Shown here: piece after piece, positions 2,419 to 44,596 of the stretch
Layout of the letters: every line of letters begins with the position of its first letter
Numbering within the stretch: position 1 is the first letter of the stretch
From: an uncultured Eubacteriales bacterium
GTDB lineage: Bacteria; Bacillota; Clostridia; Oscillospirales; Ruminococcaceae
Length of the DNA: 52,456 nucleotides
Direction of reading: 5' to 3'
NCBI GenBank assembly: GCA_900314975.1
Contig: OMXI01000012.1
Span: forward strand, 1 to 52,456
The notes under the pieces: generated by a model
Databases searched by the model: none
Told to the model about the DNA's origin: nothing
The model's input: only the letters and a program-made list of their open reading frames with translations
Program-made: the position numbers and the translations under genes

Positions 2419-3750
2419 GTGAATTACTATATCTATGGGTATACCTCAAAGGGCGATGTACGCAGCGAAAACGAGGACAGGATACTTATAGACGGCAGGA
2501 TAAAAAGCGACGGGAGCCGCTATTCTATCGTTTCAGCACCGTTCATTACCGCAGTATGCGACGGAGTTGGCGGCGAAAAGGCGGGCGAGCTTGCTGCGCA
2601 GACCTGTCTTGAAGAGCTTGCAAAGGTGCAGTACCGTTCGGGTGTTGACATCAAGGGAGCTGTCAACGATATTCACCGCAAGGTCAAGAAAAGCGGTGTT
2701 ATCGGGCAGGGTACGCTGAATATGCAGACCACGCTTTGCGCTTTGGCTGTTGACGAAAACGGCGAGGCTGTGTGCATAAACGTGGGCGACAGCCGTATGT
2801 ACAGGTACGTCAACGCCGCGATAAGACAGATATCTACCGACCAGTCATACAGACAGTTCGTATACGAGCACGGCAGCGAGGGCGAGGAGGAGCATATCGA
2901 CCCAAAGCTGCAAAATGCTATCGTTTCGTCGATAGGCAGCCTTTCCAATGACCCCGAAATAGAGGTAGTGCAGCTTGTGACGCGCTTTGGAAAAGAACCA
3001 GATGATATGATACTTATCGTTTCCGACGGCATTTCCGATTTTGTCAGCGAGCAGCAGCTTGAAATAGGTATGGGTCTTGACCTGCCGATAGGGCAGAAGC
3101 TTGAGGCTATCGCGCAGCTTGCTGTTGACAACGGCAGCCAGGATAACATCTCGATAATCGGCATAAAGCCGTACATAACCAAGCAGGAGCTTGAGGCGAT
3201 AACGTCGGATAAAAAGGGCGAGACTGTCAACATTCAAAAGCTGATAGCAGAGACCGACGAGCTTGGCGACATTCTCACGTTTGACCTTGATGAGATACTT
3301 TCAAAGCCGCTTGAAGAGCTTATCGACCACCAGCCGCAGCCTATGCCCAAGCCAAAGCCAAAGGCTGAACCAAAGAAAGAACCGATACCGCACAGCGAGT
3401 CTGCGGCAAAAACTGAAACAATAACGCAGCCCGAGCCTGTAAAAGTACCCGAGCCGACAGATACACAGCAAAGTGCTGTACAAAACAAAGAGGAGGAGAC
3501 TATGACAGCGCATAACGAAAGTGAAAAGCCGCAGCAGACGAATTTGCCTGACGAGCTTGTTCAGACGCAGGATATAGGTGAGCAGTTCAAACAGCAGCTG
3601 ACGCAGGCACAGGAAAATGTGAATAATACCGAGCAGACCGAGCAAAAGGGCGAAAAGAAAAAGATAGATTTCAGCCTGCACACGATTGAGCTTACGCATC
3701 AGTCTGCATCAAGCCTTGCACGCCTTGAAAAGCTGTTTGGCAAAAAGTAA
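2419..3750 (+). CDS. PP2C-family Ser/Thr protein phosphatase with long disordered tail
   Basis: A metal-dependent (Mn/Mg) phosphatase that removes phosphate from Ser/Thr. The first ~265 residues are a PP2C domain with the metal-binding signatures SENEDR, CDGVGG, VGDSRMYRY, SDGISD and the final QDN. All key acidic residues are present, so it should be active. Residues ~265-410 are Pro/Glu/Lys/Gln-rich low complexity. The last ~30 residues (KIDFSLHTIEL... to LEKLFGKK) look ordered and amphipathic, perhaps a docking segment. No TM segment is seen. GTG 2419 is preferred to ATG 2404 because GGGGGTGAG sits 5-12 nt before it and the promoter leaves almost no leader for the ATG. PP2C genes usually sit beside a PASTA kinase; here the nearest kinase-like gene is 33 kb away and looks catalytically dead. 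Confidence 0.88.
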   Translation: MNYYIYGYTSKGDVRSENEDRILIDGRIKSDGSRYSIVSAPFITAVCDGVGGEKAGELAAQTCLEELAKVQYRSGVDIKGAVNDIHRKVKKSGVIGQGTLNMQTTLCALAVDENGEAVCINVGDSRMYRYVNAAIRQISTDQSYRQFVYEHGSEGEEEHIDPKLQNAIVSSIGSLSNDPEIEVVQLVTRFGKEPDDMILIVSDGISDFVSEQQLEIGMGLDLPIGQKLEAIAQLAVDNGSQDNISIIGIKPYITKQELEAITSDKKGETVNIQKLIAETDELGDILTFDLDEILSKPLEELIDHQPQPMPKPKPKAEPKKEPIPHSESAAKTETITQPEPVKVPEPTDTQQSAVQNKEEETMTAHNESEKPQQTNLPDELVQTQDIGEQFKQQLTQAQENVNNTEQTEQKGEKKKIDFSLHTIELTHQSASSLARLEKLFGKK

Positions 3751-33082: not shown

Positions 33083-33889
33083 ATGGATTGCCCGAAATGC
33101 GGTAAAAAAATAGGCGATAACGACAACGTCTGCAGCAACTGCGGCGTCGTTATCAAAGAGGGCGGCGAAAACACAAAGCTGTCCACAAAGCTTTTCAATA
33201 AAAAGAATAAAAAGAAAAATCCGCTTGAAACATCAACGCTTGGCAAGACCGAAAAGCTGCGCAGCAAATTCGGTATGAAACACTTGAAGATACTGCTTGC
33301 AATCATTGCAGTTGCACTTGTTGTACTGCTTATCATCACGCTTATAGTCAGCATAGCAAGCGGCAAGGGCAAAAAGCTCGCAAGAAATACTGCCGAGTAT
33401 ATCGGTACGACTGTTGCCGTGGCAGAGACGAAAATGGATATGCATTTCAGCGATAAATCTGCATATTCGGGGCTTAACAGAGCACTTGAGTTCAATTACG
33501 TTGAGGAGAGCGAGGATTCCGTCAAGGTCGACGGTGTCACATATCCCGAGTGGGCAGTGCTGATAACTACCGACAAAAAGCAGAAGATACAGTCTGTAAA
33601 GTACTGCGACTTCAAGCTGCTGAAAAAGAATATCAAGGGTGTTGAGTGCGATAAGCTGATAAACCTTGACAGGTTTGATAAAGGCGTATCTTTTGACAAA
33701 GTTGAGGATGCGATAGATATTGACCCGTACTCAATAACCTATTCGCTTGACCTTGTGACGTACCGTTACAGATACTGGTATGATTCTGACACGGGCGACG
33801 AGCAGCAGGTAATTCTTGACGTTTCCTTTGACGGTGACAACAAGTTCCTTTACTACACATCGACCCTTGTTTATCCCGAAAATCTTTAA
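33083..33889 (+). CDS. Zinc-ribbon single-pass membrane protein, unknown function
   Basis: A 268-aa protein that begins with a zinc ribbon (CPKCG and CSNCG, Cys 3, 6, 17, 20), then a Lys/Asn-rich cytosolic linker, one TM helix at about 68-92, and an extracellular domain (about 93-268) rich in Asp, Lys and Tyr with beta-strand character. No recognised family for the outer domain. ATG 33083 has AGGGGAGT upstream; a longer reading from 32987 would start inside the terminator and is rejected. It has its own promoter and shares a bidirectional terminator with the convergent LCP gene. The layout (cytosolic zinc ribbon, TM, outer domain) recurs in the pseudokinase gene nearby. Confidence 0.75.
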   Translation: MDCPKCGKKIGDNDNVCSNCGVVIKEGGENTKLSTKLFNKKNKKKNPLETSTLGKTEKLRSKFGMKHLKILLAIIAVALVVLLIITLIVSIASGKGKKLARNTAEYIGTTVAVAETKMDMHFSDKSAYSGLNRALEFNYVEESEDSVKVDGVTYPEWAVLITTDKKQKIQSVKYCDFKLLKKNIKGVECDKLINLDRFDKGVSFDKVEDAIDIDPYSITYSLDLVTYRYRYWYDSDTGDEQQVILDVSFDGDNKFLYYTSTLVYPENL

Positions 33890-33945: not shown

Positions 33946-35349
33946 CTAATCAAATATCGCTTCTTTTATACGCCTGCGGCACTTTTCAATGTCAACATCA
34001 AGAGTTGACTGACCTGCGTGCTCGCCGTACTCAAATTCATTATCTGCGGGTATGCGAAGCTCTTTTATTTCATAGCCCAGGTAAAAAGGCGCCTTGTAGC
34101 CGTAGAAGAACAGGTCTGTCTTTGACATATTTGTCGTGAGGCTTGACATCACTGCTTTCATAAATCCGAACTTTTTGAAAACATTAACGTCCTTGACCTT
34201 TTCAATCAGCTTGGTCATAACTGTGCGCTGCCTTTGTGTCCTTTGGAAATCTGCGTTTCCGACACGGCGCATACGCGCGTATGAGAGTGTCTGGTTGCCG
34301 TTAAGCTCGACTCTTCCGCCTTTTTTAAGATAGTCCTTTGTATCTGGGTCGCCGTTGAGCCTGTTCTGTTCAAGCGTACATTCGTTCATAGCCTCGACTT
34401 CCTCGTCTGTGACCTCGACAGTTATTCCGCCGACAGAATCGGCTATTTTTGTGAACGAACTGAAATCAATGTAGACATAGTCGTCTATCTCCAGTCCGAA
34501 ATTGTACTTTATCGTGTCCATAAGCAGCTCTGCACCGCCGAAAACATACGCCGCATTGAGCTTGTTTCGGTAAAGTCCGTCAGGCTCGTCGTCGTTGTAC
34601 ATCTTTGTTCCGTCATTGTAATAACCCACAAGCGGCAGATACATATCACGCATCAGCGAGGTCATTGTTATCACTTTTTTCTCGGTGTTGACCGACATCA
34701 CCATCATAACGTCAGTCCTGCCCTTTGTGTTGGGGTCACGCGTGTCACAGCCGATGATAAGTATGTTCTTGATGTTTTTGTCGGTTATTGTGGCTTTTAT
34801 GGATCCGTCACGCTTGCCCGTTTCAACAACGTTTACCTTGCTTACAAAGTACACAAGCATTATGTTGTATATCAGAAACAATCCGACAAGTACAGAAAGC
34901 ACCGCGATTATAACGCGCTTGACAATGCTTTTTTTCTTTGTTTGTTCCACTCGCGGCGTTCCTCCTCTTGTTTCTCGCGGTATGCCTTTCTCTGTGTGTT
35001 CCTGCTGTGAAATCTGTCTGCGTACAGCTTTTTCGGGCGCGCGCCTTTGCTCGTTTGTGCGCTGCCTGCGCGGTCTTTCGCTTGGTCTTGAAGGTCTGTC
35101 GTGCGGCTGTTTGCGCTTGGGGTGAACGTATTCGCGCCGCGCACGCTGCTGTCTTTGCGGGTAGCTTTGCTGCTGTACCTGCGGCGGATACTGCTCAAAC
35201 TCAAAGTCGACATCGCTGTTGAAATAATCGGTGTTGTCCATAGCGCTGTATTCGCTCAGCTGCTTGTAATACTGCTGCGTATAGCTTTCATCATCGCTGC
35301 CTTGCGGTGTAAATCCTCTGTTTGTGTTATCGTTATATCTGTTGTCCAT
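33946..35349 (-). CDS. LCP-family (LytR-CpsA-Psr) cell-wall glycopolymer ligase
   Basis: LCP proteins attach teichoic acid or other anionic polymers from a lipid carrier to peptidoglycan on the outer face of the membrane. The 467-aa protein has a long Gln/Arg/Pro-rich cytosolic part (1-140), one TM helix (about 143-168), and the LCP domain (about 195-430) with NILIIGCDTRD, the Arg-containing TSLMRDMYLP, NKLNAAYVFGG, DSVGGI and LSYARMRR. These contain the Arg and Asp residues that bind the pyrophosphate lipid. ATG 35349 is preferred over 35415, with AAGGAGG 13 nt upstream. The promoter faces away from the pseudokinase gene in a shared 292-nt region, suggesting related wall roles. Confidence 0.92.
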   Translation of the reverse strand: MDNRYNDNTNRGFTPQGSDDESYTQQYYKQLSEYSAMDNTDYFNSDVDFEFEQYPPQVQQQSYPQRQQRARREYVHPKRKQPHDRPSRPSERPRRQRTNEQRRAPEKAVRRQISQQEHTEKGIPRETRGGTPRVEQTKKKSIVKRVIIAVLSVLVGLFLIYNIMLVYFVSKVNVVETGKRDGSIKATITDKNIKNILIIGCDTRDPNTKGRTDVMMVMSVNTEKKVITMTSLMRDMYLPLVGYYNDGTKMYNDDEPDGLYRNKLNAAYVFGGAELLMDTIKYNFGLEIDDYVYIDFSSFTKIADSVGGITVEVTDEEVEAMNECTLEQNRLNGDPDTKDYLKKGGRVELNGNQTLSYARMRRVGNADFQRTQRQRTVMTKLIEKVKDVNVFKKFGFMKAVMSSLTTNMSKTDLFFYGYKAPFYLGYEIKELRIPADNEFEYGEHAGQSTLDVDIEKCRRRIKEAIFD

Positions 35350-35608: not shown

Positions 35609-35641
35609 AAAGTGATACAAAATTTCCAAAGGAGGTTCGGT

Positions 35642-37498
35642 ATGGATCCACGTGAACAGTTGTGTATGGGCTGTATGAACGAGTTAGACCCGAGCGGACA
35701 GTGCCAGTATTGCAGCTATACGGAAAATATACCGCATCTGCAAGCTTATCTTGCGCCAAAAACAGTACTTGATAACAGATATATCATAGGTAAGATGCTT
35801 TCGTACAACGGCGAGGGTGCATCTTATATCTGCTACGATATGGTCGGCAAATGTAAGTGCGTGTGCCGTGAGTACATGCCGGATACCCTGTGCGAGAGGG
35901 ACAGCAGCACGCAGGAGCTTGTTGTAAATAAGGACTGCCTTGCAAAGTATAAGACGTTTATGTCAGAGTTTGCCGATGTGAACAGAACGCTCTCAAAAAT
36001 GCGCAATCTTCACCACATCGCTACTGCAAGGGATATGTTCAATGCAAATAACACGACCTACGTCATATTAGAGTATGTCGAGGGCGTTTCGCTCAAAAAG
36101 TTTTTGCAGTCAAACAGCGGATTTCTTTCTTGGGAACAGGTCAAAAAGCTGTTCGTTCCGCTGTTTACCACATTAAGCATTATCCATAATGCAGGCATAA
36201 TCCACAGAGGCATTTCGCCCGAGAATATAATCGTCACAACAGACGGTGAGCTTAAGCTCACAGGCTTTTGCATAAGCTCTATAAGAACATCGAACACAGG
36301 CTTGCTGCCAGAGTTCTATTCGGGATATACTGCACCCGAGCAGTATTCTTCACTCGAATGGCAGGGCACCTGGACAGACGTCTATGCTCTTGCCGCAGTG
36401 CTTTACAGAATACTTACCGGTACTATGCCGCTTGATGCGCAGACAAGAACCAAAAACGATACCATGGTCGAGCCTGCAAGGATAAATCCGCGCATCTCGC
36501 CGCATATATCAAGAGTTATAGCAAAGGCTATGGCTGTAAAGGGCGAGGAGAGAATACAGACGGTCACAGAGCTTGTTTCTGCACTGTTTGAACAGCGCCC
36601 AAGGCAGCATATCGAAATGGAAAAAGGCTCAACGCAGACTATTCCCGTTCAGCATCTTCCGCGAAATAACCGTGATTATCAAAGCGACAGAAGACAGCCG
36701 CAGAAGCAGGGCGCTCCCGCAAAGGCAAAGAAAAAGAGCAGTGCCGCTATTATCGTAAGCTGGGTGTTTATCGCAGTTATACTCGGTCTTTGCATATTCC
36801 TGCTGTATCTGCTGTTTTCAGGTCCGTCGGATAATGACAGCAATTCGTCATCATCTGTAAGAGTTATTGATTTCAGCAAGAAGGACAGTCAGGCGGAAAG
36901 CTCTTCAAATGCTGAAACTGATTCCTCAAAAGAAGAAAGCAGCGATACAGGTCTTGGTGAGGGTGCTATCATGCCGAAAATGGTCGGCGTAAGACTCGAT
37001 GTGGTCAAGCAGCAGATAGGTGATAATTTCACGCTGAAGATTGACTGGTATTTCTCCGATACTGACGAAAGAAACGTAGTAATCGGTCAGAGTATCCCGG
37101 AGGGTGAGAGCTATGACCCGTCCCAAAAGCCTGAGCTTGTGCTGAAAGTATGTTCAGGTCCCGAGAATGTGCCTGTTCCCGCATACTACGGTCTTGACCA
37201 GAAGGCTTATCTTGACCTGCTCAATGACTGGAATATCAAGTATAAGGTCACCGAGATGAGAGGCACGCAGACTGCCGGAATGGTTATCGGTACAAGCATT
37301 TATCCCGGAAACAAGATAAATGTCAAGAACGGTGATGTGCTTATCGTCTATGTTTCCGACGGTAAGGAGACTACCACCACTACTGCAAAGACGGAGCCTG
37401 AACCAAGCGAAACAGAACCGCAGAATACAAAGTCTGAAACGCAGCAGACACAGGCTACCGCAAATACAGAGAAATCACAGCCAAACGGCGAAGAATGA
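35642..37498 (+). CDS. Zinc-ribbon, protein-kinase-like (probable pseudokinase), PASTA membrane protein
   Basis: A 618-aa membrane protein with the plan of PknB/PrkC wall-sensing kinases plus an N-terminal zinc ribbon (Cys 8, 11, 21, 24). The kinase-like domain is about 45-320, the TM helix about 367-393, two PASTA repeats lie at about 440-505 and 507-575, and a Thr/Glu/Pro-rich tail ends it. PASTA domains bind muropeptides or lipid II. The kinase core looks dead: the VAIK Lys is Arg 76 (VCREYMP), HRD reads H188-R-G190, and DFG reads G208-F-C210. Asn 195, the APE motif (TAPEQ, ~230) and the fold outline remain. It is therefore more likely a scaffold or regulator than an enzyme. ATG 35642 has AAAGGAGG 6 nt upstream. 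A hairpin over the next promoter may end its transcript. Confidence 0.88.
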   Translation: MDPREQLCMGCMNELDPSGQCQYCSYTENIPHLQAYLAPKTVLDNRYIIGKMLSYNGEGASYICYDMVGKCKCVCREYMPDTLCERDSSTQELVVNKDCLAKYKTFMSEFADVNRTLSKMRNLHHIATARDMFNANNTTYVILEYVEGVSLKKFLQSNSGFLSWEQVKKLFVPLFTTLSIIHNAGIIHRGISPENIIVTTDGELKLTGFCISSIRTSNTGLLPEFYSGYTAPEQYSSLEWQGTWTDVYALAAVLYRILTGTMPLDAQTRTKNDTMVEPARINPRISPHISRVIAKAMAVKGEERIQTVTELVSALFEQRPRQHIEMEKGSTQTIPVQHLPRNNRDYQSDRRQPQKQGAPAKAKKKSSAAIIVSWVFIAVILGLCIFLLYLLFSGPSDNDSNSSSSVRVIDFSKKDSQAESSSNAETDSSKEESSDTGLGEGAIMPKMVGVRLDVVKQQIGDNFTLKIDWYFSDTDERNVVIGQSIPEGESYDPSQKPELVLKVCSGPENVPVPAYYGLDQKAYLDLLNDWNIKYKVTEMRGTQTAGMVIGTSIYPGNKINVKNGDVLIVYVSDGKETTTTTAKTEPEPSETEPQNTKSETQQTQATANTEKSQPNGEE

Positions 37499-37620: not shown

Positions 37621-38577
37621 ATGAAAATCGGTGTTTTGACAAGCGGCGGAGATGCTCCGGGAATGAATGCGGCTGTAAGAGCTGTTTGCCGTTCTGCATT
37701 GTACAAGGGTATGGAAGTTGTAGGTATCATGAGAGGCTACAACGGTCTGCTTAACGGAGAAGTTATCGAGATGAACGCAAAGACCGTTTCAGGTATTATC
37801 CAAAGAGGCGGTACATGCCTTTATACTGCAAGATGCAACGAGTTCAGAAATATGGAAGGCGTTTTGAAGGGCAAGCAGAAGTGCGAGGAAATGGGACTTG
37901 ACGGAATCGTTGTTATCGGCGGTGACGGCTCGTTCAGAGGCGCAGCTGACCTTTCAAAAGCAGGTATCCCCTGCATTGGTATCCCCGGAACTATCGACAA
38001 CGATATCGCTTGCACAGATTATACCATTGGTTACGATACAGCTATGAACACAGCCATGGAAATGGTTGATAAGATCAAGGATACTGCACAGTCCCACGAC
38101 AGATGCTCTGTTGTTGAGGTAATGGGCAGAAAAGCGGGCTACATAGCTATAAATGTTGCAGCAGCTGTAGGCGCAGAGGCTTGCATCACTCTTGAAAAGG
38201 ATTATGACCTTGACGAGATAGCAAGAAGAATGATCGAGTCAAAAACACAGGGCAAGACTCATTTTATCATCATAGTTGCAGAGGGAATCGGCAAGACCGA
38301 CTACATCACAAAGACCCTTCAGGACCTCACAGGCGTTGAGTCAAGAGCAACAGTTCTCGGTCACGTTCAAAGAGGTGGTTCGCCTACACTGCGTGACAGA
38401 GTTGCAGCTACAAGACTCGGCTATCACGCTGTTGAGCTGCTTGAGCAGGGTATCGGCAACAGAGTTTGCGGCTTCCGCAAGGGTGAGGTTTACGACGTTG
38501 ATATCCAGGAAGCGTTGAGCATGAAGAAGCCTTTTGAGGATGAGCTTTACGATATCCTTTATAAGACTGCATTCTGA
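37621..38577 (+). CDS. pfkA: ATP-dependent 6-phosphofructokinase
   Basis: Phosphorylates fructose 6-phosphate, the committed step of glycolysis. The 318-aa length is that of the classical bacterial enzyme. MKIGVLTSGGDAPGMNAA opens it; GGDGSFRGA and PGTIDNDI show Gly at the two positions that distinguish ATP users from pyrophosphate users (which have Asp and Lys there). GHVQRGGSPT lies in the regulatory and active-site region. AGGAGG precedes ATG 37621. A GNAT gene starts 2 nt after the stop (TGA-TA-ATG), so the two are translationally linked. Promoter at 37545 is embedded in a hairpin. Confidence 0.97.
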   Translation: MKIGVLTSGGDAPGMNAAVRAVCRSALYKGMEVVGIMRGYNGLLNGEVIEMNAKTVSGIIQRGGTCLYTARCNEFRNMEGVLKGKQKCEEMGLDGIVVIGGDGSFRGAADLSKAGIPCIGIPGTIDNDIACTDYTIGYDTAMNTAMEMVDKIKDTAQSHDRCSVVEVMGRKAGYIAINVAAAVGAEACITLEKDYDLDEIARRMIESKTQGKTHFIIIVAEGIGKTDYITKTLQDLTGVESRATVLGHVQRGGSPTLRDRVAATRLGYHAVELLEQGIGNRVCGFRKGEVYDVDIQEALSMKKPFEDELYDILYKTAF

Positions 38578-43654: not shown

Positions 43655-44596
43655 ATGGCTACATATACAGGCGCAAAATGTATAGTTTGCAATGACACAT
43701 TCAAAGACGGCGATGATGTTGTTGTATGCCCGGACTGCGGAACACCCTATCACCGTGACTGCTATAAACAAGCGGGCAAATGTGTTAATGAAGAACTGCA
43801 TCAAAACGGCGGCTCGTGGGTCAAGTCGGTCGACGAGGGCGGCGAGGGCATAAGATGCAGACGCTGCGGCTTTAACAATGACAAGGATAAGCTGTTTTGC
43901 GAAAGCTGCGGTACACCTCTGCACGAAACAGACAGCGAGGCTGCTGACAGAGAACGCAAGGAGGGCGCATACCGCGATGGAGTGCCAAATGAAGGCAGAA
44001 TAGAGCATTCACCTTTTGGCGACAGAACGGTCTATGATAAGGATTCGGTCATCGACGGTATCAAACTTGAGGACTATGCGGGATATGTAAAGAACAATCC
44101 GTTTTCATTTCTTATGAGCTTTATCAGATTTGGCAAATACGGCGGAAAGCTGTCGCTGAATATCGGTGCGTTCCTTTTCCCCGAGGTGTACTATCTGTTC
44201 AGAAAGATGAACCTTATTGGCATAATCTCGCTGATAGTTTGTACTGCACTTTCAGTACCCGTAATGATAGCTAATTTCGCAGTCGGCTATGCGGGATATA
44301 AAATAACTTTTCCGTTTGATGTTTCAAGCGATTCGTTCGTTATTTTGTCCACGTTCTGCTGGTATACGCTTATGGCGTGGAGAGTGTTCTCGGGACTGCT
44401 GGCAAACTATCTCTATTATAAGAAAGCAAAGAACGATATCGGTCTGATAAGAAAAACTGCTGACGGCGAAAAGGAAGTCAAGGAAATGCTTTCCGCAAAG
44501 GGTGGAGTTTCGTGGGTAGCAGCAATGTGCGGCTACTGTATGTATGTTTCGCTTGTTGTTGGCAGCGTGTTTGCTATAAACCAGATATTCAAGTAA
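43655..44596 (+). CDS. RING-finger-like / zinc-ribbon membrane protein (DUF2628 type)
   Basis: A 313-aa protein. Residues 9-43 form a RING-type zinc cluster (C9, C12, C25, C28, H33, C36, C43; CPDCGTPYHRDCY), residues 68-85 a second zinc ribbon (CRRCG, CESCG), followed by an acidic linker. The C-terminal half (about 140-313) has three or four hydrophobic segments (about 192-218, 232-252, 285-308) and fits DUF2628-type membrane proteins. The RING-like motif belongs to the prokaryotic RING family; it need not imply ubiquitin-type ligation. No E1/E2-like genes are near. The start has GGAAAAACG upstream and its own promoter. It precedes the rpsF operon but is separated from it by a promoter. Confidence 0.8.
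   Translation: MATYTGAKCIVCNDTFKDGDDVVVCPDCGTPYHRDCYKQAGKCVNEELHQNGGSWVKSVDEGGEGIRCRRCGFNNDKDKLFCESCGTPLHETDSEAADRERKEGAYRDGVPNEGRIEHSPFGDRTVYDKDSVIDGIKLEDYAGYVKNNPFSFLMSFIRFGKYGGKLSLNIGAFLFPEVYYLFRKMNLIGIISLIVCTALSVPVMIANFAVGYAGYKITFPFDVSSDSFVILSTFCWYTLMAWRVFSGLLANYLYYKKAKNDIGLIRKTADGEKEVKEMLSAKGGVSWVAAMCGYCMYVSLVVGSVFAINQIFK

Follow-up and report, generated by a model that had tools for sequence, protein, structure and literature searches.

What is left for a wall-sensing receptor kinase to do once its catalytic residues are gone? Gram-positive bacteria typically sense their wall with PASTA kinases, and the accepted view is that these act by phosphorylation. A protein built along these lines, yet altered at the active site, is encoded in the 52,456-nucleotide stretch of an uncultured Ruminococcaceae genome analyzed here (the window), which belongs to an assembly of 2.92 Mb in 91 contigs that is 98.5% complete. 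The gene and the features of its product are as follows.

35628..35635, forward strand: ribosome-binding site AAAGGAGG, 6 bases 5' of the ATG, read directly
35642..37498, forward strand: pseudokinase gene, 618 aa, ATG start
35663..35713, forward strand: four-Cys zinc ribbon, C8-x2-C11...C21-x2-C24 (alignment and predicted structure)
35759..36607, forward strand: pseudokinase domain, residues about 40-322 (family match, alignments and structure prediction)
35867-35869, 36209-36211 and 36263-36265, forward strand: codons of R76, G190 and G208
36632..36646, forward strand: TQTIP motif, residues 331-335, in the juxtamembrane linker (linker of low confidence in the model)
36743..36817, forward strand: single TM helix, residues 368-392 (predicted helix and hydrophobic sequence)
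36971..37360, forward strand: two extracellular PASTA-type units, residues about 444-508 and 510-573 (the second matched by Pfam, both present in the model)

The strong ribosome site reported in a preliminary description of this DNA holds up, and the frame is open. An in-frame GTG at 35612 finds no support as the start, as the orthologous proteins begin at the same methionine as the ATG. From its N terminus the protein consists of the zinc ribbon, the kinase fold, a low-confidence linker, the TM helix, a spacer, and the two PASTA-type units. The mean pLDDT of the model is 79.8, with most 10-residue blocks of the kinase and PASTA regions at 88-96 (92-96 by blocks for the PASTA units), the zinc ribbon, a putative metal site, at about 86-93, and the activation segment (211-240) at 58-77. 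PASTA domains are present in 42 of the 43 family members scanned.

According to the preliminary description, Arg 76 replaces the VAIK lysine, HRD has become H-R-Gly190, and DFG has become Gly208-F-Cys; alignment and model confirm all three substitutions. The catalytic columns are well placed, because PpkA, which among solved structures matches best both in sequence and in fold (PDB 5hnv, 5x1r), carries KEYMP, HRDIS, and DFG in the columns aligned to R76, G190, and G208, and no other Lys or Asp fills these places. Relatives were fetched with two sequence patterns lying outside the HRD and DFG motifs and were kept by similarity (the best 80 of 552); the HRD aspartate occurs in none of these 80. 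In an 80-row alignment of the window protein with 79 of these best 80 of 552 loci, the DFG aspartate occurs in three rows, the beta3 position is Arg in 51 and Lys in 23 of 78 lettered rows, and the cysteines of the zinc ribbon are invariant (C11, C21, and C24 in 78/78 lettered rows, C8 in 68/68).

The losses exceed those first listed. As a reference we used 12 active zinc-ribbon kinases, all of which have Asp at 190 and 208, Ala at 74, and Glu at 113, the last being the alphaC position as set by alignments with active kinases and PpkA. They were compared with 107 rows defined by a missing HRD aspartate, so that the HRD count of these rows is not itself evidence and the independent count is the zero among the best 80 of 552. 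In all 107 the alphaC Glu is replaced by L, M, V, or F (V113 in the window protein); position 208 is Asp in four and Glu in one, no row has an acidic residue at 190, and the Asn195 position is Thr in 48. At 74, 94 of 105 lettered rows have V, T, L, M, or I instead of the VAIK Ala and 10 have another residue, the Ala being kept in one. Of the three G-loop glycines, two have been replaced, by S at 54 and N at 56, and the Phe of the active kinases at 58 is E. The activation loop is a few residues shorter than in the active zinc-ribbon kinases and contains no large insert. By these alignments the catalytic base, the metal-binding Asp, the alphaC Glu, the adenine-pocket Ala, and two G-loop glycines are lost, while the kinase fold is kept. 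Because N56 (99/105 HRD-less rows), E58 (100/105), W164, and F171 are newly fixed in place of the active-kinase residues, they indicate new constraint rather than drift.

Judging from the lost residues, the protein would not phosphorylate and would probably lack the usual ATP-Mg binding. Some anion binding at beta3 is possible, since 74 of 78 lettered rows of the alignment (window plus 79 of the best 80 of 552) carry Arg or Lys there, and it counts against a catalytically dead protein that four of the 107 HRD-less rows retain the DFG Asp. These residues bear on whether the protein could be an atypical enzyme, transferring phosphate through other residues or carrying out AMPylation or glutamylation as SelO or SidJ do. 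Activities of this kind are known in some pseudokinases (PMC12599244), and the beta3 Arg or Lys and the nearly invariant N56 and E58 would be consistent with such an activity. However, the usual metal site is entirely gone, with no acidic residue at 190, few at 208, and frequent Thr for Asn195, and the adenine-pocket Ala is replaced almost throughout; we therefore regard an atypical enzyme as very unlikely.

Could the gene simply be decaying? An orthologue is found in 26 of 28 same-genus genomes (25 at full length, one as a contig-edge fragment). The two genomes that gave no match are G009, in which the linked gyrA-type gene is missing too, and G011, which is 70% complete; a missing contig can explain both absences. 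The nearest named relative among the best 80 of 552, from an uncultured Ruminococcus MAG (L080), is 89% identical, and against it dN/dS rises from 0.011 for the kinase domain to 0.049 for the PASTA units, 0.19 for the linker, and 0.27 for the tail, at a dS of 0.7-1.4; farther pairs are saturated, and for them only the order of the regions is safe. Identity of the pseudokinase domain to its counterparts in eight genomes is 97.2, 94.7, 94.0, 93.6, 84.4, 87.2, 83.3, and 83.7%, compared with 98.9, 97.7, 96.2, 95.8, 92.1, 92.1, 89.1, and 89.8% for the PrkC kinase domain in the same order and 84.9, 77.1, 76.4, and 76.4% for the active zinc-ribbon kinase in the first four; in G006 the active zinc-ribbon kinase stands at 91.9% and the pseudokinase domain at 98.9%. 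In all eight genomes, then, PrkC is somewhat better conserved than the dead domain, which in turn exceeds the active zinc-ribbon paralogue in 5/5 comparisons and is under strong purifying selection. A pseudogene, frameshift, or assembly error, which only the unusual residues themselves would suggest, is set against the open frame, the strong ribosome-binding site, the recurrence of these residues in 26 of 28 same-genus genomes, and a dN/dS of about 0.01, and its likelihood is negligible. An error in one strain's sequence, named at the outset as an outcome that would overturn the finding, is excluded by the 26 genomes that keep the gene.

The substitutions extend beyond the genus. The HRD Asp is missing from the best match in each of eight other genera of the family (8/8), and from both of the matches that were fetched among 24 genomes of other families of the order. 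A tree of 120 rows, computed with the three trait columns removed and including 13 HRD-bearing rows chosen from the fetched sequences, places the 107 HRD-less rows on one side of a branch (support 97), with one change in HRD, five in DFG, and 11 in the Lys. On this tree the loss of HRD is a single event in one clade, although rows L045, L046, and L051_2999 join near the base with low support and a second HRD loss among them is possible. Maintenance rather than decay, as originally proposed, is borne out by the shared substitutions in the orthologues, the low dN/dS, and the single HRD change. The accompanying idea of three independent losses fares less evenly: the HRD loss is fixed and the DFG loss nearly so, but the beta3 Lys/Arg is labile, with 11 changes from Lys to another residue.

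The origin of the layout differs from what was first supposed. The N-terminal four-Cys ribbon and the EY(M/F)P motif after beta3, followed by WTDVY, are common to the pseudokinase and the active zinc-ribbon kinases, and the window protein has all the marks of this zinc-ribbon EYxP lineage apart from the active-site residues. One active zinc-ribbon kinase, L050 (855 aa), has four PASTA repeats (one of the five active ones scanned by Pfam). Because active kinases have the ribbon and L050 also has PASTA, the layout predates or parallels the catalytic loss; as far as the sequences indicate, the zinc ribbon plus PASTA form need not have arisen in the pseudokinase, and the statement that a kinase had gained a zinc ribbon is not supported. 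The PknB/PrkC architecture was correctly recognized in the TM helix and PASTA units, but the kinase domain is nearer to PpkA and the zinc-ribbon kinases than to PrkC. The L050 kinase (L050:2-2566, reverse strand) also has a Listeria-Bacteroides repeat, and its neighbor is another zinc-ribbon kinase, which matches a solute-binding domain weakly and below the cut-off. Another degraded zinc-ribbon kinase, its HRD, DFG, and beta3 Lys gone, is found among zinc-ribbon kinases in genome G005 (L051:3346-6003, reverse strand).

Three genes adjoin or lie close to the pseudokinase gene in the window.

33083..33889, forward strand: zinc-ribbon/TM protein, possibly with a BLIP-like ectodomain, a recurrent upstream neighbor
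33946..35349, reverse strand: LCP-family ligase (family match), divergent from the pseudokinase gene
37621..38577, forward strand: pfkA-like gene, the usual downstream neighbor in the genus

The zinc-ribbon/TM gene (whose structure prediction used a start one residue earlier, 33080) is present in 26 of 29 genomes of the genus, the window's own included, and precedes the pseudokinase gene on the same strand in 20 of the 80 loci (best 80 of 552). Divergent members of its family lose the zinc ribbon and keep the ectodomain, which is possibly BLIP-like. We dropped its joint absence with the pseudokinase from G009 and G011 as a sign of functional linkage, because a missing contig, as discussed above, can explain both. 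The divergent LCP ligase, cited earlier as a hint of a wall role, is indeed there but does not serve as such evidence: it is divergent and adjacent in 4/80 loci (best 80 of 552) plus the window, an arrangement local to the window's nearest relatives, and it was rejected as a general partner. A gene of the LCP cluster lies 2-9 genes away in four more of the best 80 of 552 loci. The downstream gene, which we take to be pfkA-like from its sequence, is next in 21 of 81 neighborhoods (best 80 of 552 loci plus the window). Other neighbors vary by lineage and include pfkA- and presumed gyrA/gyrB-type genes, M42 peptidases, GNAT, methionine gamma-lyase, and Spo0A; this pattern looks like plain synteny. 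A membrane protein encoded at 43655-44596 (forward strand) has several Cys pairs that by eye resemble a RING or zinc-ribbon start.

The reading that we favor, with a probability of about 0.6, is that of a receptor or scaffold that crosses the membrane once, has been maintained although catalytically dead, and works by protein contacts. It is supported by the absence of the HRD Asp from the best 80 of 552 relatives, the single clade, the modeled fold and PASTA units, the dN/dS of 0.011, PASTA in 42/43 members, and an intact PrkC in the genome. Outside the membrane, the two PASTA units would contact peptidoglycan or its precursors, the kind of ligand bound by the PASTA family. Inside, the rigid pseudokinase domain and the zinc ribbon could relay the PASTA state through protein contacts, most likely with PrkC, the active PASTA kinase, or with PrkC substrates, and with the co-encoded zinc-ribbon/TM protein with its possibly BLIP-like ectodomain. 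These are candidate partners, and it counts against them that no more than 20 of the best 80 of 552 loci have the zinc-ribbon/TM gene upstream and that a PrkC orthologue is found in 8/10 genus genomes searched.

The preliminary description had asked whether a second, intact PASTA kinase exists. The genome has six Pkinase matches in six ORFs, and one of these, on C88, is such a PrkC (718 aa; AVK, HRDIKPQN, and MDFG motifs; three PASTA matches). A special case of the receptor or scaffold reading is accordingly that the pseudokinase is an allosteric or dominant-negative partner that damps or activates PrkC by N-lobe pairing or through shared PASTA ligands. Besides the PASTA-bearing PrkC itself, this draws on the analogy with the degraded C. 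difficile kinase CD2148, which modulates PrkC-dependent phosphorylation (PMC9674922, available part). Yet the two kinase domains are only 24% identical; PrkC-like matches occur also in genomes without the pseudokinase, so that co-occurrence is uninformative; and two of the 10 genus genomes, both incomplete assemblies (G006, 91% complete; G004, 83%), gave no PrkC orthologue. We consider such a partnership possible, if on balance unlikely. A wider version, likewise less likely than not, would be an ancient, family-wide lineage of PASTA pseudokinases in Ruminococcus-type bacteria that reads peptidoglycan, acts purely allosterically in complex with the BLIP-like ectodomain protein, and sets PrkC output, much like animal receptor pseudokinases.

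Other signaling genes are present in the genome. An Stp1/IreP-like PP2C phosphatase with a long C-terminal tail (2422-3750, forward strand) lies about 32 kb from the pseudokinase gene and scores 117.2 bits against NF033484, whose cut-off is 230. The active zinc-ribbon/LRR kinase (C89), another of the six Pkinase matches, is part of a reverse-strand run (L197:3573-9571) with a PP2C-like protein, a double-FHA ABC-type protein, and a membrane protein; this resembles a compact phospho-signaling operon, the roles of the PP2C-like and membrane proteins being read by eye. Apart from the two matches in the double-FHA protein, the genome shows no FHA match. A further ORF of 776 aa (G000:C41:45103-45468; L003, L006, L061) has two PASTA matches and no kinase match listed.

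The linker offers another possible mode of action. TQT[IVL] occurs there in 36 of 80 rows (window plus 79 of the best 80 of 552 loci), compared with a mean of 0.15 and a maximum of 2 in 500 shuffles; the rows are related, and the figure describes conservation in one part of the family rather than 36 events. TQTIP could be a phosphosite or a docking motif. FHA domains have a preference that fits pT-x-x-I. In M. tuberculosis, the C-terminal tail of MviN is phosphorylated by PknB and recruits FhaA (PMC12599244). By analogy PrkC would phosphorylate the TQTIP tail, where an FHA protein or another phosphopeptide reader would dock, a scheme that overlaps the favored one. Its attractions are the motif kept in an otherwise variable linker and the double-FHA protein beside the active zinc-ribbon kinase. 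However, 14 of 26 pseudokinase-bearing same-genus genomes have no FHA match, the motif is kept in all nine of these that have a row in another alignment, and 44 of the 80 rows (window plus 79 of the best 80 of 552) lack the motif; FHA docking is therefore ruled out as a general mechanism, and the MviN-like scheme as a whole seems rather improbable. A reader other than FHA, or PrkC itself, may act at TQTIP.

For the receptor or scaffold that we favor, the nearly unchanged kinase part in gut and rumen ruminococci, despite the lost residues, suggests contacts rather than phosphate transfer. A deeply conserved PASTA receptor whose kinase lacks the catalytic Asp (0 in the best 80 of 552 relatives) would amount to a natural experiment in separating non-catalytic from catalytic output. 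Bacterial pseudokinases have been little studied, and this family, from bacteria of the rumen and gut, is one whose extracellular half suggests a likely signal.

Several known systems invite comparison. With PknB/PrkC/StkP (NF033483) the pseudokinase shares extracellular PASTA units after one TM helix; it differs in lacking the catalytic triad, in its N-terminal zinc ribbon, and in a kinase domain of another branch, and scores 169.3 bits against a cut-off of 450. The zinc-ribbon EYxP kinases of Clostridia, its nearest active relatives among the tree rows, share the ribbon, and they and PpkA, which belongs to type VI secretion, share (K/R)EY(M/F)P after beta3, QG(T/P)WTDVYA, and APEQY or PEEQY; AVK/AIK, HRDISP, and LIDFG are retained in them and lost in the pseudokinase. 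EssB/YukC is not known to carry a PASTA unit or a zinc ribbon. That protein is likewise a TM pseudokinase of Firmicutes acting as a scaffold but, unlike the present one, is part of type VII secretion (PMC12599244, available part). CD2148, by description, also accompanies an intact PrkC in a clostridial cell as a second Hanks kinase that is degraded; it has lost 6 of 12 conserved residues, did not autophosphorylate, and modulates PrkC-dependent CwlA phosphorylation, but as far as the accessible text of PMC9674922 goes it lacks PASTA domains.

Among the families in the accessible portion of PMC12599244, DYD and ActPs2 share the beta3 Lys to Arg change and membrane association with the pseudokinase, and DYD also the loss of the alphaC Glu. 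R76 and V113 fit the DYD pattern, but G208-F-C stands in place of the DYD motif; the HRD Asp is Gly or Ala here and Asn in ActPs2, and the DYD and DLHK families keep HRD and/or DFG (same source). MviN (MurJ) and ActPs3, compared by description, likewise place a dead kinase domain on a wall-linked membrane protein, with tail phosphorylation as a possible mode. The pseudokinase has PASTA units and no flippase part, an FHA reader is not general for it, and its loop is a few residues shorter than in active zinc-ribbon kinases where ActPs3 has an activation-loop deletion. The families in that portion of PMC12599244 all differ from this one, PASTA appearing there in the reference list only, and titles and abstract openings on bacterial pseudokinases, PASTA, PrkC, zinc ribbons, and Ruminococcus revealed no PASTA pseudokinase family, which may bear another name in subscription papers or supplements. 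Bacterial membrane pseudokinases as such are already known; what is new is the form that joins a zinc ribbon to PASTA units and is kept across a bacterial family.
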